Shown here in pieces: positions 4,846-24,344 of a stretch of 26,784 nucleotides of DNA (position 1 is the stretch's first letter; each line of letters opens with the position of its first letter). Below the pieces are notes generated by a model that was not told where the DNA came from, did not search any database, and was given only the letters and a program-made list of their open reading frames with translations. Source of the DNA: a virus; IMG/VR virus record IMGVR_UViG_3300020442_003817, positions 1 to 26,784 of that record; one strand, 5' to 3'. The translations under genes and the position numbers were made by a program.

Positions 4846-4853
4846 TATTTATA
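4846..4853 (-). promoter_or_regulatory. T4-type late promoter box for the leftward late genes
   Basis: A perfect TATAAATA is read on the minus strand, 39 bases before the gp48 start. Initiation is expected near 4840. The two late transcripts would start inside each other's promoter region and overlap for about ten bases at their 5' ends. Confidence 0.7.
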
Positions 4854-4860
4854 TGGAAAA

Positions 4861-5367
4861 ATGGCATATTCTGGAAAGTATAAACCAAAGAGTCTTAGCA
4901 AGTATAGAGGCGATCCTGATAAAGTGACATATCGTTCACATTGGGAAAAACTGTGCTTTTTATGGTGCGATCGCAATCCTGATGTAAAATATTGGTCATC
5001 AGAAGAAACAGTGGTACCATATTATTGGGATATTGATAAACGATACCACAGATATTATGTTGATTTAAAAATTACATTTAATGATGGTAAAACAATTTTA
5101 GTTGAAATAAAACCATCCAAGGAAACAGAACCACCCAAAAATCCAAATAAAAGTAAAAAATATATTGGTGAGGCAATGACATATGTAAAAAATATGAATA
5201 AGTGGGAGGCTGCAAATAAATATGCAAAGGATAGAGGATGGGAGTTTCAAATATGGACAGAGAAAACACTTGACAGCATGGGTATCATGAAAGGACAAAA
5301 AGGTAAACTCAAACCTTTAAAGCCCTTAAAACCATATCGCAGAAAATCTAAAAAACCATATAAATAA
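4861..5367 (+). CDS. 4: gp4-like head completion protein
   Basis: This 168-residue protein matches T4 gp4 (about 150 residues), which finishes the DNA-filled head before tail joining. The N-terminus (SLSKYRGDPDKVTYRSHWEK, LCFLWCDRNPDVKYWSSEE) is characteristic. A TnsA-like nuclease arrangement can be seen: E29 in SHWEK, D68 in YYVDLK and E82-I-K84 in LVEIKP, so the PD-(D/E)XK-type ligands look intact. The C-terminus is very basic (KLKPLKPLKPYRRKSKK), suitable for DNA binding. It is the first gene of the rightward late operon. Its weak ribosome site is GGA just before the start. Confidence 0.85.
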   Translation: MAYSGKYKPKSLSKYRGDPDKVTYRSHWEKLCFLWCDRNPDVKYWSSEETVVPYYWDIDKRYHRYYVDLKITFNDGKTILVEIKPSKETEPPKNPNKSKKYIGEAMTYVKNMNKWEAANKYAKDRGWEFQIWTEKTLDSMGIMKGQKGKLKPLKPLKPYRRKSKKPYK

Positions 5368-5371
5368 TGAT

Positions 5372-5962
5372 ATGAGTAATTTATTTCAAAAATTGGAATT
5401 TGAAGCCTTTCGTGCTGGTATTAACCCTCGTACAAAAGAAGCACAAAACTGGTTTCGTAAAAGAGCCAGAACAATGAAAGGTATTAATCGTAATGAATTA
5501 ATGAGTGATGAGGAAGTGAAACTTGTCAATAGGCAAAATCCTTTAATTGGATCTATGAATATGTTTTTCTATGATCCAAAACACAAGGAAACACTTCCTT
5601 ACTATGATAGGTTTCCTTTGGCAATTATTGTGGGTCCTGCGCCAAAAGGTTTTATGGGATTAAATTTACATTATTTACCACCAGTTTTACGAGCCAAACT
5701 ACTTGATGCATTACTTGATATCACAAATAATAACAAATATAATGAATCGACTAGGTTTCAGGTATCATACGATGTATTAAAAAGCACTAGTAAATTAAGA
5801 TATTTCAGGCCCTGTTTAAAACACTATTTAACTGCTCATGTAAAATCACGTTTGGCCCGTGTATCGGCACCAGAGTGGGAAATAGCTACATTTTTACCTA
5901 CAGCAAGTTGGGAAAAATCAAGTGCTGGTAATGTTTATAAAGATTCGAGGAAAGCAATATGA
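5372..5962 (+). CDS. Conserved T4-like phage protein, function not assigned
   Basis: This 196-residue protein has an N-terminal basic helix (KEAQNWFRKRARTM) and a central motif (LPYYDRFPLAIIVGPAPKGF, then GLNLHYLPPVLRAKLLDAL) that I associate with a conserved family of marine T4-like phages. I cannot give it a T4 gene name. Position between gp4 and a tail-tube-like gene suggests a virion or head/tail assembly role. T4 gp2, which protects DNA ends and is a neighbour of gene 4 in T4, is one possibility I cannot support by residues. It starts five bases after the gp4 stop with no clear ribosome site, so it is probably translated by coupling. Its stop overlaps the next start (ATGA). Confidence 0.8.
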   Translation: MSNLFQKLEFEAFRAGINPRTKEAQNWFRKRARTMKGINRNELMSDEEVKLVNRQNPLIGSMNMFFYDPKHKETLPYYDRFPLAIIVGPAPKGFMGLNLHYLPPVLRAKLLDALLDITNNNKYNESTRFQVSYDVLKSTSKLRYFRPCLKHYLTAHVKSRLARVSAPEWEIATFLPTASWEKSSAGNVYKDSRKAI

Positions 5963-6654
5963 GTAGTGTAGACCAAATAAAATCTCTTGCATCTTCAAAA
6001 CTTGGTTTTGCCAGAACAAATCAATTCCTTGTTGAGTTACCTACAACCTTTTCTGGTACCGGTGGGTTTCTAGGGCAACTCACTACCCTTCTTACAAGCG
6101 GTGTGGGACTTGGTTCTGGAGGTGGAGACCTTAATATACTATGTTCAGCTGCAACACTTCCTGGTAAACAGATATTAACACACGAACGTAGAATTGGAAT
6201 GGAATTCCAAAAAGTTGCATATGGATATGCCGTTGAGGATGTGTCACTTACCTTTTATGCATTAAATGATTATGGTACTCGCAAATATTTTGATTCATGG
6301 AGACAAAGAACATTAGATGAAAGTGGCCACATTGCTGGTTATAAAAAGGATTATGCAAAGGATGTTAAAATACACCAGTTGCGTAAACCTATAAAAAACA
6401 TTGGTGGTGGTCTCGGGCCGATAAAGGTAAATATAGGACTAGGAGGTGGATCTGTTTATTCTGTAAGACTAATTGATGCATTTCCTACAACAGTTCAAGC
6501 AGTTGAATTAAATAATGACATGGATGGATTGGTACAAATTAGTGTACAACTATCATATACAAATTGGGAAACAACATCAAGTGGACAAGGCTGGATTCAA
6601 GCAACTGCCGGTATCGGTGGTGGATTGGGTGGATTAACCAGTTTCTTATCATAG
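5959..6654 (+). CDS. 54: Tail-tube-like protein, probable gp54 tube initiator
   Basis: This 231-residue protein has features of the tail-tube fold shared by gp19, gp48 and gp54: FARTNQFLVELP at the N-terminus, CSAATLPGKQILTHERRIG, then VEDVSLTFYALNDYGTRKYF and W, and a terminal strand region (LVQISVQLSYTNWETTS). Gly-rich stretches sit at about 30-50, 145-165 and at the C-terminus. T4 gp54 (320 residues) starts the tube on the baseplate next to gp48. The main tube protein gp19 normally lies beside the sheath gene, which is not in this window, so gp54 is preferred. Ribosome site GAGG lies 8 bases before ATG. Confidence 0.6.
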   Translation: MSSVDQIKSLASSKLGFARTNQFLVELPTTFSGTGGFLGQLTTLLTSGVGLGSGGGDLNILCSAATLPGKQILTHERRIGMEFQKVAYGYAVEDVSLTFYALNDYGTRKYFDSWRQRTLDESGHIAGYKKDYAKDVKIHQLRKPIKNIGGGLGPIKVNIGLGGGSVYSVRLIDAFPTTVQAVELNNDMDGLVQISVQLSYTNWETTSSGQGWIQATAGIGGGLGGLTSFLS

Positions 6655-6663
6655 GAGTAAAAT

Positions 6664-7374
6664 ATGGCGCTACCGCGTTTGAATGATTCACCACAGTATG
6701 AATTAGTAATACCGTCAAGTGGAGATAAACTTAATTACAGACCATTTCTTGTAAAGGAACAAAAAATTCTTATGTTGGCATTTGAGTCCCAAGATAAGAA
6801 ACAAATATTAAATGCAATATTGGATACTATCGAGGCATGTTGTCCAAATGTGGAAAAAAATAAACTGGCATCATTTGATGTTGATTATATTTTTACACAG
6901 ATAAGAACCAAATCGGTTGGTGAAACAACAACCATTTCTGCAACATGCGAATGTGGACATGAAAATGATGTAGTGGTAAATTTAGATGAGGCCGTATTAC
7001 ATAATGAACACACAACCGATATTATTAAATTAAATAGTGAATATGCAATTAAAATGAGATGGCCGTCATATCACGAAATTGCAAATAATGATATAATAAC
7101 ATCGCAGTCTGCAAAGAATACAGATATTGTTTATGAAACAATTAAAATGTCAATCGATGGTATTATGACTGAAGATGAATTTATTTTATTAAAAGACGAG
7201 TCTGCAGAGGAAGTTGATAGGTTTGTAAATTCATTAACGACTGAACAGTTTAATAAAATTAATGAATATATTTCTGCAGCTCCTACTTTAAAATATGATT
7301 TAAAATATAAATGTGAAGGTTGTGAAAAGGAAATTACTAAAACACTGGAGGGCTTACAAGATTTTTTTTCCTAA
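6664..7374 (+). CDS. 26: gp26-like baseplate hub assembly protein (zero-frame product)
   Basis: This 236-residue protein matches the T4 gp26 family, baseplate hub assembly factors. The opening (MALPRLNDSPQYELVIPSSG, then YRPFLVKEQKILMLA) is typical. Four cysteines form a likely zinc ribbon: C95 and C97 in CECGHE, and C217 and C220 in CEGCEK. Residues 120-200 read as helical (IDGIMTEDEF, VDRFVNSLTTEQFNKINEYI). Ribosome site AGGAG lies 6 bases before ATG. The gene ends in a run of eight T residues followed by the stop, and an open -1 frame continues beyond it (see 7368-7550). The position just before the tape measure candidate fits a tail assembly chaperone. Confidence 0.85.
   Translation: MALPRLNDSPQYELVIPSSGDKLNYRPFLVKEQKILMLAFESQDKKQILNAILDTIEACCPNVEKNKLASFDVDYIFTQIRTKSVGETTTISATCECGHENDVVVNLDEAVLHNEHTTDIIKLNSEYAIKMRWPSYHEIANNDIITSQSAKNTDIVYETIKMSIDGIMTEDEFILLKDESAEEVDRFVNSLTTEQFNKINEYISAAPTLKYDLKYKCEGCEKEITKTLEGLQDFFS
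7362..7368 (+). promoter_or_regulatory. Candidate -1 ribosomal frameshift site (T TTT TTT)
   Basis: The last zero-frame codons are GAT TTT TTT TCC TAA. The heptamer T TTT TTT lets both ribosomal-site tRNAs re-pair exactly after slipping back one base. Reading then continues TTC CTA AAC in a frame that stays open to 7550. The zero-frame stop follows the slip site by one codon, an arrangement that favours slippage. Confidence 0.6.
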
Positions 7375-7550
7375 ACCTTTCTCATGATTCATTGGAAAAT
7401 TATTATAGGGTAAACTATCAATTACTACAAAATTTTAATTATTCGTTAACTGAGATTGATAGTATGATGCCATGGGAAAGGGAAATATATCTATCAATGC
7501 TTATAGATGATTTAAAAGAAAAAAATGAAAGGGCTACTCAAAGGGGATAA
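7368..7550 (+). CDS. Frameshift extension of the gp26-like protein (60 codons)
   Basis: This -1 frame is open from 7341 to the stop at 7548-7550. It encodes a sensible protein: FLNLSHDSLENYY, then YQLLQNFNYSLTEIDSMMPW and EREIYLSMLIDDLKEKNER. The 'MMPWEREIY' type of helix is what frameshifted tail chaperone extensions look like. There is no ATG with a ribosome site before it. The only internal ATG (7464) would leave 28 residues. Fusion to the zero-frame product gives about 295 residues. An alternative is independent translation from a rare start as a small gene (a gp51-like name is used in some relatives, which I cannot verify), or a sequencing error in the T-run. Confidence 0.65.
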   Translation, partial: FLNLSHDSLENYYRVNYQLLQNFNYSLTEIDSMMPWEREIYLSMLIDDLKEKNERATQRG

Positions 7551-7552
7551 CA

Positions 7553-9061
7553 GTGACCGATTTAAAAGCCATTAACGATACTCTAGAGGCACAAGGTGAA
7601 ATTCTAGAAAACGTTGAACACAATACCGAGGCAACCAATAAAGGTATTCTAGGTATTTTTAATGAACAAAGGAGAAGTAGACTAGATACTTTAGAGGCCC
7701 AAAGGGAAACTAAAGAACAAGGTGCTACAGTTCAAAGGGCAGCACAAAGTAGTGCCGGTGAAAGTGGTGGTGGTTTAAATATACCTGGCATGTTAGGTCT
7801 GGGTGCACTAGGCTCTAAATTAGGACAATTATTTACCCTCGGTATGTTAACTAAATTATTTAAACGTGGTATTATAGGTGGTGTTATAACATTATTGGCC
7901 GATGAGGTCGGTGATTATGTAAAAACACTTACCGGTAATGATCTTGCAGGAGCATTAACAGAGGCTGGACTTGTTGGAGGTGGTATTGGTTATGCATTAT
8001 TTGGTCCAAAGGGTGCAGTACTTGGAGCCATTGCCAGTGCAGTTGTTGTTGCAAGTAATAAATTAACACAATATTTGGAAAAGGAATTAAAGGATTATAG
8101 CCCGGATTATAATTCAGTAATTGCTGAAGCACTTGGTGCTGGTACAACAATTGCTGCAGGTGCTGGTGTAGGATTTATGGTAGGAGGACCACTTGGAGCA
8201 GTTGTAGGTGCTGTAGTAGCCGGAAGTGCCGAATTAGTAGGGATGATTTCCAGATATAAAAATGATGAAAAATTTAGAAACCAAGTTGATTCCATTGGTG
8301 CCAGAATTGAAAGTCAACTAGAAAAAATAATGTCAAATGCTGGTGGAGTTGTTACAGATTTTCTTGCAGCATTGGGATTACCTTTTTTATCAAGTGATGA
8401 AAAAAATGCATTTGCCGAACAATTTCCAGATTTACAAAAAGAATTACAAGATGCACAACGCAGATTAGGAACTGAATTTGCTGCAAAGATAAGTCAACCA
8501 GGTGGTATATCAAATTTAACTCAACCAGAATTAGAAGAATTTAGAGCCCTTACGGATAGAATTGCTGCGATAAAAAGACAACGAGAACTATTTCTAACAA
8601 AATCAAATGAACAACTTGGTATTACTGATGAAGTGCTTGATTTTGGAATGGATGATACATCATCAAATAATGTAGTAGATCCTGGCCCTGCAATAAAAAA
8701 TGCCGCTCAGGCTACAGTTGATGCAGTTTCAGATGTAATTGCCGATGGTAATACAGGCGTCATGAAAATACCAGGGTATATAGCAGATTTACCAATGAGG
8801 GCTCAAGAAAACTATTTAATGCAAAATCAAGGACTATCGCCAAGTGATATTACAAAATTTAAAACACTGGCAAATGAAATGAATATGGGACTTATAGAAT
8901 ATTTGGAAAAAACTCGTACCAGTGGATCCACAATCGTTATGGATAATTCAGATAGGTCAACCACTGGTAGTTCAACCACCGCTCTTGTAGGATCTGGTAC
9001 TAATGCATTAGATATGAATAATCCAATATTAAAAAGAGCGATGGCTGGTATGGGTATGTAA
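7553..9061 (+). CDS. Candidate tail tape measure protein (gp29 position)
   Basis: This 502-residue protein starts at GTG with AGGGG seven bases upstream. The first 70 residues are charged and likely coiled coil (NDTLEAQGEILENVEHNTEA, then RRSRLDTLEAQRETKEQ). Residues about 75-235 hold three Gly/Ala-rich hydrophobic stretches (MLGLGALGSKLGQLF, GGGIGYALFGPKGAVLGAI, AAGAGVGFMVGGPLGAVVG), as commonly found in tape measure proteins. The rest is helical, with a Ser/Thr-rich tail. Its place right after a frameshifting chaperone is the classic tape measure place. No direct motif of T4 gp29 was recognised. A membrane-active ejected protein is the main alternative. The stop is directly adjacent to the convergent gp32 stop. 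Confidence 0.5.
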   Translation: MTDLKAINDTLEAQGEILENVEHNTEATNKGILGIFNEQRRSRLDTLEAQRETKEQGATVQRAAQSSAGESGGGLNIPGMLGLGALGSKLGQLFTLGMLTKLFKRGIIGGVITLLADEVGDYVKTLTGNDLAGALTEAGLVGGGIGYALFGPKGAVLGAIASAVVVASNKLTQYLEKELKDYSPDYNSVIAEALGAGTTIAAGAGVGFMVGGPLGAVVGAVVAGSAELVGMISRYKNDEKFRNQVDSIGARIESQLEKIMSNAGGVVTDFLAALGLPFLSSDEKNAFAEQFPDLQKELQDAQRRLGTEFAAKISQPGGISNLTQPELEEFRALTDRIAAIKRQRELFLTKSNEQLGITDEVLDFGMDDTSSNNVVDPGPAIKNAAQATVDAVSDVIADGNTGVMKIPGYIADLPMRAQENYLMQNQGLSPSDITKFKTLANEMNMGLIEYLEKTRTSGSTIVMDNSDRSTTGSSTTALVGSGTNALDMNNPILKRAMAGMGM

Positions 9062-16538: not shown

Positions 16539-17174
16539 TCACTTTTTTTGTTTTATTTCGTCTCGGCCGCCATACACTTCAATATTTACATTATCGGAAA
16601 TATCAAATTTTAATTTGTTGTGCATGTGGTGTAATATAAATTCTGTTCGACCATCACTAAAATCTTTAAATATATTTTGCCATAATGGCCGCCAGTTATT
16701 GGCCAACCTATTATTATTCATATTTCCACGATCAGAGTTAATATAAAAGTCTGTACAAGATCTTAAATTAAAATCAAATATGGAATCAAATCCATACATG
16801 TGTACCCTTTCTGCTTTAAGATATTGACAAGCAAAATAAACTGCCATATGACCACAATTTAGGTCTGTATAATTGGCAGCATAACTTGGTAATCTTGTAT
16901 AAAACATTTTGATTTGGTGTGATCTTTGCATATGAAAATTAGGATTTTTTTCCATATATGCCTTAGGTCGTGCTCCTAATATCCATTCGCCTGGTACTTC
17001 CACATCTCCTTTGTGGATGTGTCGCATCATTTTAAAATCAACCATGCAAGTTGCATATGCATCTTCCACTGGAAATGGTGGTAAATTACAAGTTAGTTTT
17101 AATCCTTTTCTAGGTGCATCATGATAAAACGCTGCACCATCACCATTACCAACAACATGTACTGTTCTAGGCAT
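16539..17174 (-). CDS. Predicted glycan-modifying protein, Rossmann-like, exact class unclear
   Basis: This 211-residue protein opens with RTVHVVGNGDGAAFYHDAPR, a nucleotide-sugar style glycine loop after a strand. LKLTCNLPPFPVEDAYATCM follows, then SYAANYTDLNCGHMAVYFAC and QYLKAERVHMYGFDSIFDFN. That layout (GNG loop, CN, a GH-AVYFA helix, YGFDS) recalls sialyltransferase-like and DUF115-like proteins that work on surface glycans. No DxD motif is present. It is the last gene of the glycan cassette and overlaps its upstream neighbour by eight bases. A role in sugar transfer is supported mainly by context. Confidence 0.5.
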   Translation of the reverse strand: MPRTVHVVGNGDGAAFYHDAPRKGLKLTCNLPPFPVEDAYATCMVDFKMMRHIHKGDVEVPGEWILGARPKAYMEKNPNFHMQRSHQIKMFYTRLPSYAANYTDLNCGHMAVYFACQYLKAERVHMYGFDSIFDFNLRSCTDFYINSDRGNMNNNRLANNWRPLWQNIFKDFSDGRTEFILHHMHNKLKFDISDNVNIEVYGGRDEIKQKK

Positions 17175-17850
17175 TTATAAACTCCGCAATCTTCATCTTA
17201 CCTCTAATTCGATCATTACCTTTTTCACCAGTCCAATGCATAATTTTTTTATTTGGACTATCCTCATCATCATGTTCTATTTGTATTCTTAACCAGTTAT
17301 ATTCATTTGGTAATTCTTTTATGTATGTCATTCTTGTAATAGGATTTAACATACTATGTAATACTTCTTGATCTCCAATTTCTGGATTTTTATTTACTTG
17401 TTCTGCCCACTGTTTTAAAATATCTGGTTTTTGATAAAACCCTACGACGCCAGAATTAAACCATTCCTCTTTTCTACGTTTTAACCATGGTTTATCAATT
17501 GCCATGCATAATTTATTTGGCTCTATGTAATCAAACATTTTTTCAATATTACCAAGGACTTCACAGTCAGTATCAATCCAAAAACATTTCTTACCTGGTG
17601 CCTGTAACATGGCCGCTGGTTTACCAAACCAACCTTTTATCTCATCCTTTACTTTTATATCCATATGACAAAATAGTGCAGGATGAAAAGAATTTTTTAG
17701 GTTTTCCTTCATTTCACTTGACATACCGAAATCTGCAATTGCAAGTTGTATCTTATTATGCTTATAATAATTCTCAATAAACCACCATAATTGCCATTCT
17801 GTCTTTTCATCGCAACCAGTGACTATTAATTTTTCAGGCATTTTAGGCAT
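17167..17850 (-). CDS. Glycosyltransferase, GT8-like GT-A fold
   Basis: This 227-residue protein is likely a retaining-type sugar transferase. The DxD metal motif lies in KKCFWIDTDCEVLGNIEKMF, preceded by FGKPAAMLQAPGKK. WFNSGVVGFYQK is the acceptor-side motif and QEVLHSML and KKIMHWTGEKG (the HxxG-like end) complete the GT8-type order. No membrane segment is present, so it acts in the cytoplasm on an activated sugar. It overlaps its neighbours on both sides by eight bases. Confidence 0.75.
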   Translation of the reverse strand: MPKMPEKLIVTGCDEKTEWQLWWFIENYYKHNKIQLAIADFGMSSEMKENLKNSFHPALFCHMDIKVKDEIKGWFGKPAAMLQAPGKKCFWIDTDCEVLGNIEKMFDYIEPNKLCMAIDKPWLKRRKEEWFNSGVVGFYQKPDILKQWAEQVNKNPEIGDQEVLHSMLNPITRMTYIKELPNEYNWLRIQIEHDDEDSPNKKIMHWTGEKGNDRIRGKMKIAEFINA

Positions 17851-18493
17851 CGATTATTCCATATCCATCTTTATAATTATGTTTTGCTTGACAGCCTTCT
17901 GATTTTTGTATTGTTGTAAACCCATCTGCTGCCATACAGGCCCATGGGTAATATTCTTCCAACCAAGGAAATGTTTCTAAATTCATAAATACATCGGTTG
18001 GTCGACCGTGTGTTTTTGCTTTGGTAATTAATTGTTTAGCGCCCCAAGGATTTACAATATATCCGTGTGCACCACCAAAATATGGTTTCTGTACAAGACC
18101 ATCAATTCCAATTTTTAGTGGTGTGTTAAATTTACCATATGAGGGTTTTGAAAATGTCATGACACCTTGAAAAATTTCATCAGTAGGTATCTTACCAATT
18201 ATAAGTGCATCGTGTTCAAACACTATAATATTTTCATTATTCTTAACTGCCTTTTCCCACAATGAGTGATGTGATAAAAATGCCGCGGCACAATTTTCGT
18301 GTCTGGAATAAACCTCAGAAAAAAATGATGGCTGAATTCCTTTTTTATGTAACAGTAAAAAAGGATTATCTTTTGGTGTAAATGCTTTATGTTTTTCCAC
18401 GGTCAGTCCATGCTTATTTGCAGATTTAATACACCTTTCTGCAGATGCAACTGACTGTTCGTTCTCCATAATTGTAATAACAAATGCTTTCAT
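17843..18493 (-). CDS. Glycosyltransferase family 25-like (LPS type), copy A
   Basis: This 216-residue protein begins MKAFVITIMENEQSVASAER, as GT25 enzymes do, and has CAAAFLSHHSLWEKAVKNNE, then NIIVFEHDALIIG, the core GT25 pattern (AC-xSH-xxW, ExDA). GGAHGYIVNPWGAKQLITKA is the usual second motif. GT25 members add galactose or similar sugars to LPS outer cores. A paralogue lies at 18706-19401. It overlaps the start of the upstream small gene by four bases. Confidence 0.85.
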   Translation of the reverse strand: MKAFVITIMENEQSVASAERCIKSANKHGLTVEKHKAFTPKDNPFLLLHKKGIQPSFFSEVYSRHENCAAAFLSHHSLWEKAVKNNENIIVFEHDALIIGKIPTDEIFQGVMTFSKPSYGKFNTPLKIGIDGLVQKPYFGGAHGYIVNPWGAKQLITKAKTHGRPTDVFMNLETFPWLEEYYPWACMAADGFTTIQKSEGCQAKHNYKDGYGIIDA

Positions 18494-18705
18494 TCACAAG
18501 TCTTCTTTCCTGCACATTCTTTTGGAAAGCAGTGGCCTTTCATATGATAATATTCATTTTCAAAAGAAGCGATCCACATATCTTCTTCAATTAGCATATG
18601 ACATTGTTTTTCTGAAAATGGTTGCTGTAATGCAATTTGACCGATATAATGATCTGTAGCACCATCACTACCCCACATACTAATAACTAATATAAATTCT
18701 TTCAT
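18490..18705 (-). CDS. Small cysteine-containing conserved phage protein
   Basis: This 71-residue protein has a hydrophobic start (MKEFILVISMWGSDGATDHY), then QIALQQPFSEKQCHMLIEED and NEYYHMKGHCFPKECAGKKT. I recognise this type (WG-DG, QC, CFP-EC-GK-C) from uncharacterised small proteins of marine phages. Four cysteines, three near the C-terminus, suggest a disulfide-bonded or metal-bound product. It sits between two GT25-like genes but is probably a common phage gene that became part of the cassette. Confidence 0.7.
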   Translation of the reverse strand: MKEFILVISMWGSDGATDHYIGQIALQQPFSEKQCHMLIEEDMWIASFENEYYHMKGHCFPKECAGKKTCE

Positions 18706-19401
18706 TTAATTCACCGTTGTTGATGGAAGTCCTTGTACACTGGTAAAATATTCTTTTGTAACACCCAATTTAGGAATAATTTGTTTACACATTATTGCAT
18801 CATTAGGCCAAACACCATGTTCCTTTACTGCTCTTATTAAATTTTTAGCCCCACTTGGTTTAATTATATATGCAGAATTTCCAGCAAGGCCTTGTGGTAT
18901 ATTAAACTCATCAATATCTGGTACAGGTTGAATCCATGCAGGTTTACTTTGTACAATATCATGGAACAAGTGTGCCTTACGTGTAGCCGACGCAGGGGAG
19001 TTAATACCTATAATGTCATAGTTACTTTTTAGTATTGCATCTTGTTTTAATTGTTTTACGAATACAGCATCATGTTCCATAATAAGCATTGGTTGATTAT
19101 CATTTATGCATTTTTTCCATAAAAGCCAATGACTCATTGCACATGCAATTCTGTTTTCTGGTATTTTTGTTTGGTATGCAGATTTTACAAGTCCGGTTTT
19201 AAGATCTGTTTCTTGTCCTTGCCATGGATATTTCCATTTTAAACCATTACCAACCATAACAGTTTTGGCCATATCTGGAGTTACGCCTTCAAATAAGACC
19301 ACTTCAAAATTATTTTTAACCTTTTTGGAAGAAGTTATGCATACATTAGCACCTTTTTCTGATATTGAATTACCTTTTACATATATTACAAATGCATTCA
19401 T
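18706..19401 (-). CDS. Glycosyltransferase family 25-like, copy B
   Basis: This 231-residue protein shows the same core as its neighbour at 17843: RIACAMSHWLLWKKCINDNQ, PMLIMEHDAVFVKQL, then LAGNSAYIIKPSGAKNLIRA. It is longer by about 15 residues, with an insert after the first strands (LKWKYPWQGQETDLKTGLVK). The two copies are clearly diverged, which suggests different donors or acceptors rather than recent duplication. It begins four bases inside the end of the sulfotransferase gene (ATGA). Confidence 0.8.
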   Translation of the reverse strand: MNAFVIYVKGNSISEKGANVCITSSKKVKNNFEVVLFEGVTPDMAKTVMVGNGLKWKYPWQGQETDLKTGLVKSAYQTKIPENRIACAMSHWLLWKKCINDNQPMLIMEHDAVFVKQLKQDAILKSNYDIIGINSPASATRKAHLFHDIVQSKPAWIQPVPDIDEFNIPQGLAGNSAYIIKPSGAKNLIRAVKEHGVWPNDAIMCKQIIPKLGVTKEYFTSVQGLPSTTVN

Positions 19402-19919
19402 CTTTTTAAATAATTCCTATGAGGAAATTCTTCCATTGTTTTATTAATACCAAGAAAATCAAATAGTTTTTGTGGTTTATCAATACCATCTACAATGTTT
19501 AACACTAATAAATCATTTGGTCTTTTTTTAAAGTATTCCCGGATATTTTTTTCGTGATTATCAAATGACCTTTCATAGGCGGAATAATTAAACCACACAT
19601 CTCCATAAACTGATTCTCGGATATTTAGTGTCCTAGTTGACTGATTCCAATTTACCTTTCTTGCAAGATAAGTGGACATTGATTGTAACCATTTTTCCTT
19701 ATCCCTTGTTGTAAGGATAAATTTAGAGTTTGGAAACATGGTATCAAGTTTTTTGAACTTTGGAATTACCGGTATATCAGAAGCACCATCGTTATTAAAT
19801 GATAGCATTTCATCATCTGTTGGATAATGTATATGGTTATAACCTACTTCATTTAATACATATGTGAGTGTGGATGTACCAGTTCTGGATAAACCTAATC
19901 CCCATATTTTAGATTTCAT
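19398..19919 (-). CDS. PAPS-dependent sulfotransferase (predicted)
   Basis: The product from ATG at 19919 is 173 residues; the GTG at 19934 lies upstream of the ribosome site AGGA and is rejected. WGLGLSRTGTSTLTYVLNE carries the 5'-phosphosulfate loop (SRTGTST, residues 11-17) and FPNSKFILTTRDKEKWLQSM carries the 3'-phosphate motif (TTRD...W..S). This pattern fits the sulfotransferase superfamily, which moves sulfate from PAPS to a hydroxyl or amine. Position amid glycosyltransferases suggests sulfation of a sugar. Length is short for the family (usually 200-300). Confidence 0.75.
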   Translation of the reverse strand: MKSKIWGLGLSRTGTSTLTYVLNEVGYNHIHYPTDDEMLSFNNDGASDIPVIPKFKKLDTMFPNSKFILTTRDKEKWLQSMSTYLARKVNWNQSTRTLNIRESVYGDVWFNYSAYERSFDNHEKNIREYFKKRPNDLLVLNIVDGIDKPQKLFDFLGINKTMEEFPHRNYLKR

Positions 19920-20721
19920 AATTCCATTCCTCACGAGGTAAATTTACAACACGCCATAGTTGTTCTCCGGTCATTGCATCAGCGCCAGGAAATTGACAAT
20001 GCACAAAATTTGTATCAATTGTTCTATGGTCTACAATTCTTCTTTTTGGCTGTTCCTTATCCCTGGTACCGTGAACGTAACTGTTCCATTTATTATCCAT
20101 AATTTGATAATTCATACCGGTGGCAAAAATCATTGCATGTAAATATGGTTGATCACAGGTATAAAATGAATCCAAAGGTTTACTTTTAATTAATTTTACA
20201 TAATCCTTAAATTTTTTCCAGTCCCTTCTGGCATGTTCCGCTCCATATCGTGAGTACAAAACCATACCAGAATTATAAACCTTTAATAAACCTTCACTGG
20301 TTCTAGGTAACTTGCAAGTATACGCCTTTTCAATAGTTCGGGCCCATAATTCATCTTGTTGTGTATTAATACGACCTAAGGTAATTTGTCTTTGTTTTGG
20401 TTGGAATGGTTCTTCACAAATACCAATATCACATCTAAAATCTTCAAATATATTTTCCTTAATATTATCCACTGCAAATACATCTGTATCACAAAAAAGA
20501 ATATTATCATAGTCCCTATATTTTTTATTCCATAGTGGTTTAAATGCACCATAATGTGGACTGTAATTACCAAAGTCCATACCAATGCTTTTTAACCACT
20601 GTGGATTATTCTCAAAAACATATTCAGCGCCAATATAATTGGCATATTTTTTCATGTTATCCACACCAGCATTACAAGATGGTTTTACCTTTCCATCCCA
20701 GTATTGGTAAATAATATTCAT
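19909..20721 (-). CDS. Glycosyltransferase, GT-A fold, phage-type paralogue 1
   Basis: This 270-residue protein begins MNIIYQYWDGKVKPSCNAGV and has MKKYANYIGAEYVFENNP, then DNILFCDTDVFAVDNIKENI with the DxD metal site. VYNSGMVLYSRYGAEHARRD is the acceptor-side motif. It shares the YA-xxxGAxY, DxD and NIF order with the genes at 20718 and 23580, so the three form one diverged family. The substrate is unknown. It overlaps the sulfotransferase by about ten bases, and AAGGA lies 7 bases before its ATG. Confidence 0.75.
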   Translation of the reverse strand: MNIIYQYWDGKVKPSCNAGVDNMKKYANYIGAEYVFENNPQWLKSIGMDFGNYSPHYGAFKPLWNKKYRDYDNILFCDTDVFAVDNIKENIFEDFRCDIGICEEPFQPKQRQITLGRINTQQDELWARTIEKAYTCKLPRTSEGLLKVYNSGMVLYSRYGAEHARRDWKKFKDYVKLIKSKPLDSFYTCDQPYLHAMIFATGMNYQIMDNKWNSYVHGTRDKEQPKRRIVDHRTIDTNFVHCQFPGADAMTGEQLWRVVNLPREEWNYEI

Positions 20722-21386
20722 ATTAAATTCCTTTTTACTAATGCACGATAATTTTCTATTTTTGGTGCTTTAGGCCCGCCAAGTTTTACTTTTGGTCTGA
20801 TGTGTATAATATACGCCTCATCCACAGTTTCTTCAAATGAACTATAATTCCATTGTTGTCTATCAAAATAAATTCCTGGTTTTACTTTAAAATCTGCAAG
20901 TACTGCACAACGATGCATAATACCTTCATCATTATATGTACCATTAAATTGTATCATTTCATGTATATGTAAATGTTTACGAAATTCTTGCCTAATATCT
21001 TTTTCCAATCTGTAACACGAACCACCCCAATAAGGGTAGTCTGCATTACAAAGCAGTGGCCATTTAGCGGCAAGTTTTTTTACCAATGTTTCTTGGATAT
21101 TGTAATGACGACCCATGCCAGTTTCATCTGTAAAAATATTTGCAGTGCACCCTTTACGGACAAACATATCAATGTCCATCATAACGACCACATCGTAATC
21201 ATCAAATTCTTCACTCAGCATATGCATCTTTTGCGATTGTGTTGATACACCACGGTTAAATACAGAACCACGTAAAAGTTTATAATCGGCGCCACAAAAT
21301 TTTGCATATTTTTGTATATTGGCAGATGATAAATTTTCTAATTCGCCTAGTTCACCAGTCCAATGTTGTAATATTATTTTTTTCAT
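20718..21386 (-). CDS. Glycosyltransferase, GT-A fold, phage-type paralogue 2
   Basis: This 222-residue protein begins MKKIILQHWTGELGELENLS and has QKYAKFCGADYKLLRGS, then DYDVVVMMDIDMFVRKGCTA with DID as the DxD site, followed by NIF. GGSCYRLEKDIRQEFRKHL and AYIIHIRPKVKLGG follow. It is the shortest of the three paralogues and lacks part of the C-terminal acceptor region. It overlaps both neighbours with ATGA junctions, so the set is translated as one coupled unit. Confidence 0.75.
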   Translation of the reverse strand: MKKIILQHWTGELGELENLSSANIQKYAKFCGADYKLLRGSVFNRGVSTQSQKMHMLSEEFDDYDVVVMMDIDMFVRKGCTANIFTDETGMGRHYNIQETLVKKLAAKWPLLCNADYPYWGGSCYRLEKDIRQEFRKHLHIHEMIQFNGTYNDEGIMHRCAVLADFKVKPGIYFDRQQWNYSSFEETVDEAYIIHIRPKVKLGGPKAPKIENYRALVKRNLI

Positions 21387-22117
21387 TTTTTACTTGCAAT
21401 TAAATAATGGTCATTTGTTTTAAATGGACATTTTTCGTATTTTACATTATGTGATTCACTTAATTTATTTCGTAAGTCCTTAAAATATTTTTTATTATCC
21501 ACACCAAAAGAATCGTTGTGTTTATGTGCAATCATGATATACTTATACTGTTCATAAAATGGTTCAATTATTTGTCTATCATCTAATGGCATTTCACTAA
21601 TACTAAATGTACCAATTAAAAGACTGCAATCTGCATTTGGTAATAAATTTATTGGTCGCAAAGGTAAACATTTCCAGTCGGCATAGTCCAATGTTTCACC
21701 TAAAAAATATTTTTGAATAATATTCATAATTGGAAAATCCAAAATTATATATTTTCCATCAAATCCTGTTTGATGAAAACTATAACAAAGGTTACCATAT
21801 CCACCACCAATATCTGTAATCCAATTAAGGTCACTTGGTGTAATATCAAAAAGTTGTTTTAATTTATAAATGTAATATGCAGATTGCACTGCAGTAAGAC
21901 TATGTGTACCACTAAATTGTATACTTGGTTCTCCTGTTGATGGATCCTTTACTTTATCCAAATAATCCGTTTCTGTATTTAATTTTAAATACAAATTCAT
22001 ACCACCATGGACGGGATGTATTGTTCTGGCAATATTTTTTTGTTGTAAAAAAGAAGATTTATTTTCCACAAATTCCTTTTCAATTATATCCAACCAATCT
22101 AGCCAAGATTTACTCAT
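21383..22117 (-). CDS. Putative sugar O-methyltransferase
   Basis: The product from ATG at 22117 (AAGGA 6 bases upstream) is 244 residues. The SAM-binding loop is WITDIGGGYGNLCYSFHQTG at about residue 103-122, followed by KYIILDFPIMNIIQKYFLG, LIGTFSISEMPLD and YIMIAHKHND. The N-terminal part (GGMNLYLKLNTETDYLDKVK, then QFSGTHSLTAVQSAYYIYKL) fits the family of putative sugar O-methyltransferases found in surface glycan clusters. It is predicted to methylate a sugar in the product of this cassette. The earlier TTG at 22123 has no ribosome site. Confidence 0.7.
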   Translation of the reverse strand: MSKSWLDWLDIIEKEFVENKSSFLQQKNIARTIHPVHGGMNLYLKLNTETDYLDKVKDPSTGEPSIQFSGTHSLTAVQSAYYIYKLKQLFDITPSDLNWITDIGGGYGNLCYSFHQTGFDGKYIILDFPIMNIIQKYFLGETLDYADWKCLPLRPINLLPNADCSLLIGTFSISEMPLDDRQIIEPFYEQYKYIMIAHKHNDSFGVDNKKYFKDLRNKLSESHNVKYEKCPFKTNDHYLIASKK

Positions 22118-22713
22118 AAACAATCCTTTCTGGCAAAAACATAATCGTGTTGTATTATTAACTTACCATCTCTTTTGTGATCACGTTCCTTCCATTTATG
22201 TGTAAAACCGTACGACTCTAAAAAATCCAAATATTCTTGTTGTGTTGGTGAACCTTTATTAAATTCAATACCAACTGCTGGTATTTCACAATGGATTACC
22301 TTACAGTGATTCATGATTTCATCACAGCCAGTTAATATATCTAACTCGGCACCTTGTACATCAATCTTAATAAGATCGGGCAATGGGATATTATTTTCCT
22401 GGATATAGGAATCCAATCTTTTTGTTGGTAATATTGTTGTTTTATAATTTGATTTTAAAAACTCGTCTGTTTCACGATAGTATGTATCACCGGTTCCACC
22501 ATCATGGTAAAACGTAACAGTTGCATCATCCGTGTGTGATAATACCACATTGTGCCAGTTACCAGAACCTATTTTACCTGGACTGGCCTCGAATTGATAA
22601 AATATTGTATTAGGTAAATAATGTTTCATACGTTCAACAAATTGGCCTTTATGTGCACCAATATCATAGGCAACATTAATTTTATAATCTGCAATTACCC
22701 TGTCAAGCATCAT
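22114..22713 (-). CDS. FkbM-family methyltransferase
   Basis: The product from ATG at 22713 is about 199 residues (22710 is equally possible). VAYDIGAHKGQFVERMKHYL is the SAM loop, and LIKIDVQGAELDILTGCDEI is the highly typical FkbM acidic motif, followed by VIHCEIP. FkbM enzymes O-methylate polyketides or sugars and are frequent in surface polysaccharide clusters and in marine phage genomes. The GTG further upstream (22725) is not favoured because the AAAGG ribosome site lies between it and the ATG. Confidence 0.9.
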   Translation of the reverse strand: MMLDRVIADYKINVAYDIGAHKGQFVERMKHYLPNTIFYQFEASPGKIGSGNWHNVVLSHTDDATVTFYHDGGTGDTYYRETDEFLKSNYKTTILPTKRLDSYIQENNIPLPDLIKIDVQGAELDILTGCDEIMNHCKVIHCEIPAVGIEFNKGSPTQQEYLDFLESYGFTHKWKERDHKRDGKLIIQHDYVFARKDCL

Positions 22714-22996
22714 AAAACCTTTCACCCAAATCTTCAGGTGTACCTTTCCAGTTTTTATCCTTTTTTGTTAACTGTTCCATTGCACGGTATGTAGGTATTT
22801 TATCTATAGGGCAAATTAAAGTTGGACCTTTTCCACTTACCGGTTGATTTACATTTAAATTTTTAATATCTTTTGGATATATAAAATCGCTGGATGCCTT
22901 TACAAAAAATTTTACCTCTTGATGTTTACAGATAAGTGGTAACCAATACCAATGAAATTTTTTCTGATTACCTTTGTATTCTGTAATAATTACCAT
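22703..22996 (-). CDS. Small hypothetical protein in the glycan cassette
   Basis: This 97-residue protein begins MVIITEYKGNQKKFHWYWLP, then LICKHQEVKFFVKASSDFIY and ends with TKKDKNWKGTPEDLGERFYD. It is basic, with many aromatic residues near the N-terminus, and probably alpha/beta. No known domain was recognised. It overlaps the methyltransferase upstream by seven bases and the FkbM gene downstream by about eleven, so it is translated with them. GAGG lies about 10 bases before ATG. It might be a fragment or accessory subunit, but I cannot support that. Confidence 0.65.
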   Translation of the reverse strand: MVIITEYKGNQKKFHWYWLPLICKHQEVKFFVKASSDFIYPKDIKNLNVNQPVSGKGPTLICPIDKIPTYRAMEQLTKKDKNWKGTPEDLGERFYDA

Positions 22997-23595
22997 GGTT
23001 TTTGTGCCTCTACAACTCCAGAATGTAATGCACGAATTACACCGGCCGTATCAATATTATTAAATTCTGCCCTACTACTTTTCATATAATTACACTCCTT
23101 AACACTTATAAAACCAATATCCTTGAGTGTTTCTATCATTTCTTTTTTTGGCCAAATATATAAGTGTTCACCATTCTGATATAATAAACCGAGCGCACAT
23201 TGTTCCCTTTTACTTCTATGACCATTACCTGGTGCAGCAAACTTATGTTTTACAACATAAAAGGCGTGATAATGTTCAACAAAGTTTTTTTCTTGCTCAT
23301 TTAATTCCTCATCACTTACCAATTTTTCTACAAATTCATATGGTGGCCAAACGGTACGGATAATACCACCTGGTTTTAATATTCGTAATGCTTCTTTAAA
23401 AAAATTAATTCCTTGATATTTGTGCATGTGTTCAATAAAATGTTCTGAGTAAATACCGTCAAACTGATTATCACTATATGGTGTTGGTAAATTTGTAAGA
23501 TCAAGATTATCCACACCGGCTCTTTTTTGTAGATTTACAACTGTCCAGTTTAAACCTCTAGGTTTATCTGCAGCAATTTCTAGGAATTGTCCCAT
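22990..23595 (-). CDS. SAM methyltransferase-like protein missing the usual glycine loop
   Basis: This 201-residue protein contains the second half of a class I methyltransferase: FDGIYSEHFIEHMHKYQGIN, then FFKEALRILKPGGIIRTVWP (motifs II to IV). The N-terminus (MGQFLEIAADKPRGLNWTVV) replaces the normal GCGxG loop with a variant lacking Gly-x-Gly. Such short versions are common in phage and glycan clusters, so it may be active, with altered SAM binding, or it may be a structural partner. Start is supported by GGAG 8 bases upstream. It overlaps the upstream glycosyltransferase by 16 bases. Confidence 0.7.
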   Translation of the reverse strand: MGQFLEIAADKPRGLNWTVVNLQKRAGVDNLDLTNLPTPYSDNQFDGIYSEHFIEHMHKYQGINFFKEALRILKPGGIIRTVWPPYEFVEKLVSDEELNEQEKNFVEHYHAFYVVKHKFAAPGNGHRSKREQCALGLLYQNGEHLYIWPKKEMIETLKDIGFISVKECNYMKSSRAEFNNIDTAGVIRALHSGVVEAQKPW

Positions 23596-24344
23596 ACACT
23601 TAACTCCGTTTTTTCAAGTTGCGGCATATTAAATTTTGTTCTTGCAAGAAAGTGATTAATTTTACCGTCCGGTTTACCTTGCCATTGATATGGCATTCTA
23701 TTCCACATGGTATCTAATTCTGTTACATTAAATACACTTTGTGATAATTGCAAATTAATATACATCTGCTCTGTATATCTGGTATGCATTACATAATTAT
23801 CTATGCACGTGAAATGTTTACGAGCTTTTTGTCTACCCTCTTTTGACCATAGTTGTAATCCACCATTTAAATATCTAAATCGTTCATTTGGATATAAAAC
23901 TGATTTTGGAAACATCCATTCTTTTCCAAAAAGATGTTTACCATAAGCAATAATTCCTCTTTTGTATAAAGGTACATCCATTACGTTACGCATCCATCCG
24001 GCTGGGCCGCCGGTATGTACACCCAGTTCATGCACCATTGCAACATCAACAAAATTAGTATTAAATATATTTTCCCTTGTTGATATAAGCATGTCAAGAT
24101 CAATGGATAGAATGTGATCGTATTCATCCCATTTGTCGTCAAATATAATTTTTGTGGAATCTAGTCTTGGATCAATGTGTTCAAAATATCTGTCGTGGTC
24201 TAGAATATATTCAGCGCCACATATTTTTGCATATGCTTGGGCAGAGCGGCTACCAGCGTGTGCCCACTCTGGCATTTTAATTCCACCCATATCCTTATCA
24301 TTCATTTCATACGGTATATAATATTGAAATACTAAATTTTTCAT
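23580..24344 (-). CDS. Glycosyltransferase, GT-A fold, phage-type paralogue 3
   Basis: This 254-residue protein has SAQAYAKICGAEYILDHDRY and DEYDHILSIDLDMLISTREN with DLD as the DxD site, followed by NIF, matching the two paralogues at 19909 and 20718. FRYLNGGLQLWSKEGRQKAR is the acceptor-side motif and is longer than in paralogue 2. It is the first glycan gene in the transcription direction. A weak purine-rich site (AGAG) precedes the ATG. Eight bases separate it from the preceding small gene. Confidence 0.75.
   Translation of the reverse strand: MKNLVFQYYIPYEMNDKDMGGIKMPEWAHAGSRSAQAYAKICGAEYILDHDRYFEHIDPRLDSTKIIFDDKWDEYDHILSIDLDMLISTRENIFNTNFVDVAMVHELGVHTGGPAGWMRNVMDVPLYKRGIIAYGKHLFGKEWMFPKSVLYPNERFRYLNGGLQLWSKEGRQKARKHFTCIDNYVMHTRYTEQMYINLQLSQSVFNVTELDTMWNRMPYQWQGKPDGKINHFLARTKFNMPQLEKTELSVWDNS

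Follow-up and report, generated by a model that had tools for sequence, protein, structure and literature searches.

A probable −1 programmed frameshift joining a gp26-like protein to a gp51-type extension ahead of the tape measure gene of a T4-like virus

The locus described here raises the question of whether two overlapping reading frames, the second of which stays open past the stop codon of the first, are decoded as two separate proteins or as a short and a long form of the same protein. It is located in the window, i.e., the whole stretch of viral DNA that was analyzed (26,784 nucleotides, positions 1 to 26,784 of the IMG/VR record IMGVR_UViG_3300020442_003817). A sequence-only reading of this DNA had suggested a probable −1 frameshift fusing a gp26-like protein to an extension just before the tape measure gene. 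The coordinates it gave, including the heptamer T_TTT_TTT at 7362–7368 and the −1 frame open to 7550, were confirmed from the sequence, and the suggestion itself gained strong support from the comparison with related phages. The features of the locus are as follows.

5959–6654, plus strand: tail tube protein gene, directly upstream of the gp26-like gene (phrog_45, E 1.1e-31)
6664–7374, plus strand: gp26-like gene encoding the short form (TAC-N), 236 aa (PF12322, phrog_150, AF2 model)
7347–7352, plus strand: internal Shine–Dalgarno (SD)-like element GGAGGG, 9 nt before the heptamer (anti-SD duplex energy −9.8 kcal/mol)
7362–7368, plus strand: putative slippery heptamer T_TTT_TTT inside a run of 8 T (7362–7369); T_TTT_TTN in 194/194 distinct junctions
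7372–7374, plus strand: zero-frame stop codon, one sense codon past the heptamer (from the sequence)
7368–7550, plus strand: −1 frame extension (gp51 C-terminal domain), 60 residues and a stop (phrog_634, phrog_150, dN/dS)
7553–9061, plus strand: probable tape measure gene, GTG start, 502 aa (phrog_167, E 4.9e-6; phrog_1272, E 5.8e-6; position after the chaperone)

The gp26-like frame ends in ...CAA GAT TTT TTT TCC TAA, and over this 3′ end no stop interrupts the −1 frame between 7341 and its TAA at 7548–7550. A slip at T_TTT_TTT adds 60 residues (7368–7547) and gives a 295-aa fusion with the peptide ...GLQDFF/FLNLSHDS... across the predicted junction; by this layout, the short and the long form have their N-terminal domain in common. 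Profile matches place genes for head closure, the DNA end protector and the tail tube upstream of the gp26-like gene, and the ORF 7553–9061 directly 3′ of the chaperone locus; since the matches of the latter to tape measure profiles are weak (E ~5e-6), its naming rests partly on position. Elsewhere in the window, the minus strand harbors a gp5-like hub protein gene (596–1498), whose product combines an OB domain at the N-terminus with a phage tail lysozyme domain (PF18013) instead of the T4 lysozyme type, and a run of accessory genes (16539–24344), possibly for glycan modification, which includes a sulfotransferase (19398–19934), an FkbM methyltransferase (22114–22725) and a further methyltransferase (22990–23595).

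The product of the zero frame belongs to the gp26 family, as follows from its match to PF12322 “T4 bacteriophage base plate protein” (E 1.5e-55; 188.7 bits vs. the cutoff of 24.5; residues 10–235, the whole domain) and to phrog_150 (E 2.4e-58). The −1 product is matched over its residues 2–59 by phrog_634 “baseplate hub assembly catalyst” (E 8.7e-24) and by positions 232–282 of phrog_150 (E 4e-9). Judged by this homology, the 60 residues are no new peptide but correspond to the C-terminal portion of the T4 gp51 family. The frameshift reading stands for this locus with two amendments, namely this identity of the extension and the fact that T4 encodes its long form in a gene apart, within a single frame. 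Among the phage records searched with tblastn, the extension was detected in 1118 and gp26 in 820.

PF12322 matches both gp26 and gp51 of T4, and T4 gp51 consists of the gp26-like domain (residues 1–201, E 3.9e-52) followed by the extension; hence, T4 gp51 represents the long form in one frame, and the fused protein exists in nature. Relatives with the two parts joined without slippage had been named as evidence against a frameshift; T4 gp51 is precisely such a case, yet it supports a fused product. T4 gp26, for its part, terminates in ...LKEFFELL, i.e., at the same end point as the short form of the window. The T4 pair and the window locus share the families (the PF12322 gp26-like domain and the phrog_634 extension), the short and long form of one domain and the proximity of tail genes. 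They differ in that the window holds one locus with a −1 shift, whereas T4 and the other T4-type Straboviridae examined devote a gene of its own to the long form, in one frame and on the strand opposite to gp26 (T4, Pectobacterium phage PM2, Acinetobacter phage W16, IME13 and avDM2). The gp51 protein of T4 has been described as required for assembly and absent from the final particle (PMC3004832).

Two further observations concern the T4-type genes. T4 gene 26 (2303–2929 of its record, L002) displays a weak match (E 9e-4) to phrog_1140, the profile of the gp28 family, T4 gene 28 itself being located at 4849–5382; judging by this similarity, the hub distal subunit (gp28) may belong to the same superfamily as gp26. 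Two T4-type gp51 genes are disrupted, one by an internal frame break near residue 115 (L250, 2501–3246) and the other by a deletion of the middle part (L157, 2237–2626), which reflects either assembly errors or gene decay.

The conservation of the junction was assessed in relatives collected by protein similarity, never by the presence of the heptamer. The extension was found in the −1 frame at all 155 loci that carry the two parts on one strand (tblastn) and at all 235 loci with the overlapping arrangement (profile/HMM search). After the removal of duplicates, 194 distinct junctions remained, which grouped at 60% identity into 88 clusters and at 50% into 43. Alignment of the T run and the downstream frame over relatives, proposed earlier as a check, revealed T_TTT_TTN at every one of these 194 junctions (N = T in 102, C in 50, A in 38 and G in 4), and the heptamer coincided exactly with the first residue of the extension homology in 194/194. 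The zero-frame stop lies 0–2 codons past the second slip codon in 187 junctions, and for 27 of the 194 the open part of the −1 frame starts no earlier than the heptamer. Other in-frame copies of T_TTT_TTN in the same genes are rare (15 of 31,798 codon positions, 0.05%). Given the codon usage of the genes, the occurrence of a T-ending codon followed by TTT at the site in 43/43 clusters at 50% identity has a log10 P of −18.7, an approximate value, as the clusters are related.

Homopolymer runs are error-prone, so a frame break located in one might be an artifact of sequencing or assembly, the true gene being one continuous frame. The probability of this is practically negligible here, considering that the identical −1 break at the identical codon recurs in 194 distinct junctions, including those from finished genomes of cultured phages, and that the run of 8 T is also present in a near-identical second public contig (L003), whose gp26 is 99.6% identical to that of the window. 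The distribution of run lengths bears on another possibility, namely fusion via slippage of RNA polymerase on the T run (transcriptional frameshifting) instead of ribosome slippage. The 8 T of the window are long enough for some slippage of this kind, but the run length varies among relatives, with only 6 T in 92 of the 194 junctions and 9 T reached in just 2, while the heptamer always keeps its codon phase; besides, transcriptional slippage leaves the SD-like element without a role. It was rejected as a general mechanism on the T-run lengths, and we consider it most improbable for this locus.

The heptamer is also widespread taxonomically: 20 of the 22 named phages with the overlapping arrangement carry T_TTT_TTN, and they represent several families and genera (Kyanoviridae, Schizotequatrovirus, other large Vibrio phages, Nanhuvirus, Ceceduovirus, Emdodecavirus, Pootjesviridae, Otagovirus and Menderavirus, the extension match in Menderavirus Ps15 being weak, E 0.002). 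The remaining two, Klebsiella phage Madison (L262, 3200–3400) and Pseudomonas phage Cygsa01 (L263, 3130–3336), are distant relatives that keep the −1 overlap with ATT TTC instead of T_TTT_TTN; Cygsa01 features, in addition, a TAATG stop–start overlap of gp26 and the extension. This points to a loss of the shift in these phages, or to coupled re-initiation having taken its place. A single-frame fusion of gp26 and gp51 was considered for the cyanophages S-WAM1, Sf-CH1b and S-CAM4, in which one annotated feature only covers the match, and was rejected: all three have the ordinary −1 overlap with T_TTT_TTC.

The opposite answer to our question would be that the extension constitutes a small gene of its own, gp51, translated by re-initiation after the gp26 stop or from an internal start, with no fusion. 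Public annotations of S-PM2, P-SSM2, phiM12 and others do present gp51 as its own CDS, and an ATG just after the gp26 stop is found in S-PM2 and P-SSM2, as are TAATG overlaps in Vibrio phages and Cygsa01. However, the annotated starts vary between genomes and often trim the conserved N-terminal part, and some records omit gp51 altogether. The sequence-only reading had noticed no usable start for the extension, and in the window none precedes the conserved region: the only candidates in the −1 frame are the near-cognate TTG at 7392 and the ATG codons at 7464 and 7467, both inside the conserved block. A separate ATG with a ribosome site is likewise rare among relatives, with an ATG within the extension residues 1–10 in just 8/88 clusters and any common start with a fair SD in 2/88. 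On this survey of start codons, independent initiation was rejected as a general mechanism. Moreover, the homology of the extension begins exactly at the heptamer in every junction, and re-initiation does not need T_TTT_TTN. For the window, we regard a separate gp51 gene as a very unlikely reading.

As judged by its substitution pattern, the extension is coding, and purifying selection acts on it in the −1 frame alone: its median dN/dS was 0.15 in this frame vs. 1.0 and 2.5 in the other two, a wide gap even though the 1300 pairs are non-independent.

Upstream of the heptamer, the core of the SD-like element ends 7–9 nt before the slip site, a spacing fixed among the relatives. The mean anti-SD duplex energy of this element over the 88 clusters was −6.05 kcal/mol; synonymous shuffles gave −4.62 and other positions of gp26 −1.13 (Wilcoxon p 3e-9, with relatedness ignored). 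The element is as strong as the ribosome site of gp26 itself (−5.48); a conserved Gly codon accounts for part of this signal. With −9.8 kcal/mol, the GGAGGG of the window ties for the lowest energy in the set.

Downstream of the heptamer, no significant RNA structure was found in the window (z about 0.4), and the group mean was modest (z −1.12 vs. about 0 for control stretches). About a quarter of the relatives possess a strong downstream hairpin, possibly a clade-specific stimulator; in L137, L151, L214 and others it is situated in the extension coding region, 10–60 nt past the heptamer (e.g., AGTCTTGAGAA..TTCAAGACT). Conserved downstream structure as a universal stimulator was rejected for the window, notwithstanding the group mean. 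The −1 site of E. coli dnaX comprises a heptamer, an internal Shine–Dalgarno sequence about 10 nt upstream and a strong downstream hairpin; the window resembles it in the heptamer and the upstream SD-like element and differs from it in having no strong downstream hairpin.

The AF2 model of the window gp26, built from a 53-sequence alignment, has a pLDDT of 91.8. Its best match in the PDB found with VIA-align was 3fgx, an uncharacterized Bacillus protein (Z 7.9), followed by 2ob9, the HK97 tail assembly chaperone gp14 (Z 7.6, i.e., below the caution line of the tool at Z 8); the subsequent rows were unrelated, from Z 5.0 down. A Foldseek search of the same model against the PDB returned no significant match, and a BFVD search retrieved gp26-type baseplate hub proteins of many phages. 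The alignment with HK97 gp14 covers the N-terminal ~85 residues of the model and 84 of the 107 residues of gp14 (rmsd 3.1) at 13% identity. Beyond it, gp26 has ~150 more residues, in which Cys pairs suggestive of a zinc ribbon are present. This model supports, without proving, a chaperone fold for the N-terminal third of gp26. For the extension, three helices were predicted, and Foldseek with the extension alone gave no informative match.

Taken together, the comparison establishes the sequence anatomy of the locus, shows that it is conserved and that purifying selection acts on the extension, and adds a resemblance in fold. On these grounds, −1 programmed frameshifting that would give a short and a long tail assembly chaperone is the best explanation, to which we assign a probability of about 0.9; the slippage itself, its efficiency and the chaperone action are what we infer. 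Most ribosomes would terminate at 7372–7374 and produce the 236-aa short form (gp26-like, TAC-N). With both Phe codons of T_TTT_TTT in the P and A sites, a minority would slip back by one base, assisted by the pairing of GGAGGG with the 16S rRNA, and read on to 7550, yielding a long form (TAC-NC) of 295 aa with the gp51 helical domain at its C-terminus. If the roles correspond to those of lambda G/GT, the tape measure protein would be coated by the short form, and tail tube subunits would be recruited by the C-terminal helices of the long form. In lambda, the −1 shift that yields the short and the long form of G/GT likewise occurs where the first gene ends, and the tape measure gene follows directly. 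The slippery sequence of lambda is G_GGA_AAG; that of the window differs, and the extension in the window, a homolog of gp51, is a helical domain of 60 aa. A −1 extension that had gone unrecognized, preceding the tape measure gene and marked by a conserved T-rich motif, was also reported for the chaperone locus of Pakpunavirus Adele and Andersonviridae (PMC12846349); these belong to other phage families, the motif is given as GTTTTT and not as T_TTT_TTN, and the likeness is one of description.

According to PRFect (PMC10885494), citing Vladimirov et al. 2022, some T4-like phages have a short gene and a longer fused gene with no frameshifting. The Adele paper (PMC12846349), citing the same work, refers to poly-T slippery sequences as known in T4-like TAC-N genes. 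Both papers credit the T4-like tail assembly chaperones to Vladimirov, Gautam and Davidson (2022, Virology 566:9). As far as these citing papers convey, the core idea of frameshifted chaperones with poly-T in T4-like phages is already published, and this locus is a further case of it; measured against the idea as they present it, the breadth, the SD and the selection results are additions. The proposal that the gp26 family may be the T4-branch counterpart of G/GT is supported by the gene order and by the tentative HK97 chaperone fold match, but it is not new.

Outside the branch of T4 itself, the frameshifted arrangement seems, from the genomes compared, nearly universal. A tentative reading, which we consider less likely than not, is that the frameshifted gp26/gp51 is ancestral and prevailing in T4-like phages (Kyanoviridae, Schizotequatrovirus, Ceceduovirus, Pootjesviridae and others), that the separate genes of T4 were derived via duplication and divergent placement replacing the shift, and that a few distant phages arrived at a third solution that has the −1 overlap but no heptamer (in Cygsa01, with TAATG). 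In the gene tree, gp26, gp51 and the frameshift group are separate; the tree is not confidently rootable, and the use of the gp26 and gp51 N-domains to place the root and time the duplication was abandoned as unreliable, the identities between the groups being about 15–25%. If the ancestral reading is true and the breadth is not in the 2022 paper, represented here by the papers citing it, its headline of a mechanism other than frameshifting in T4-like phages would need revising.

None of the annotated records examined marks a frameshift at the junction of gp26 and the extension. Many public cyanophage genomes omit gp51 or show it as independent with an implausible start, and a −1 frameshift annotation is due in them. 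Two chaperone forms in a set ratio are needed for the control of tail length; in most T4-like phages the same locus would set this ratio by frameshifting, in T4 through separate genes, which allows the genetics of T4 gp26/gp51 and the work on lambda G/GT to be read together.
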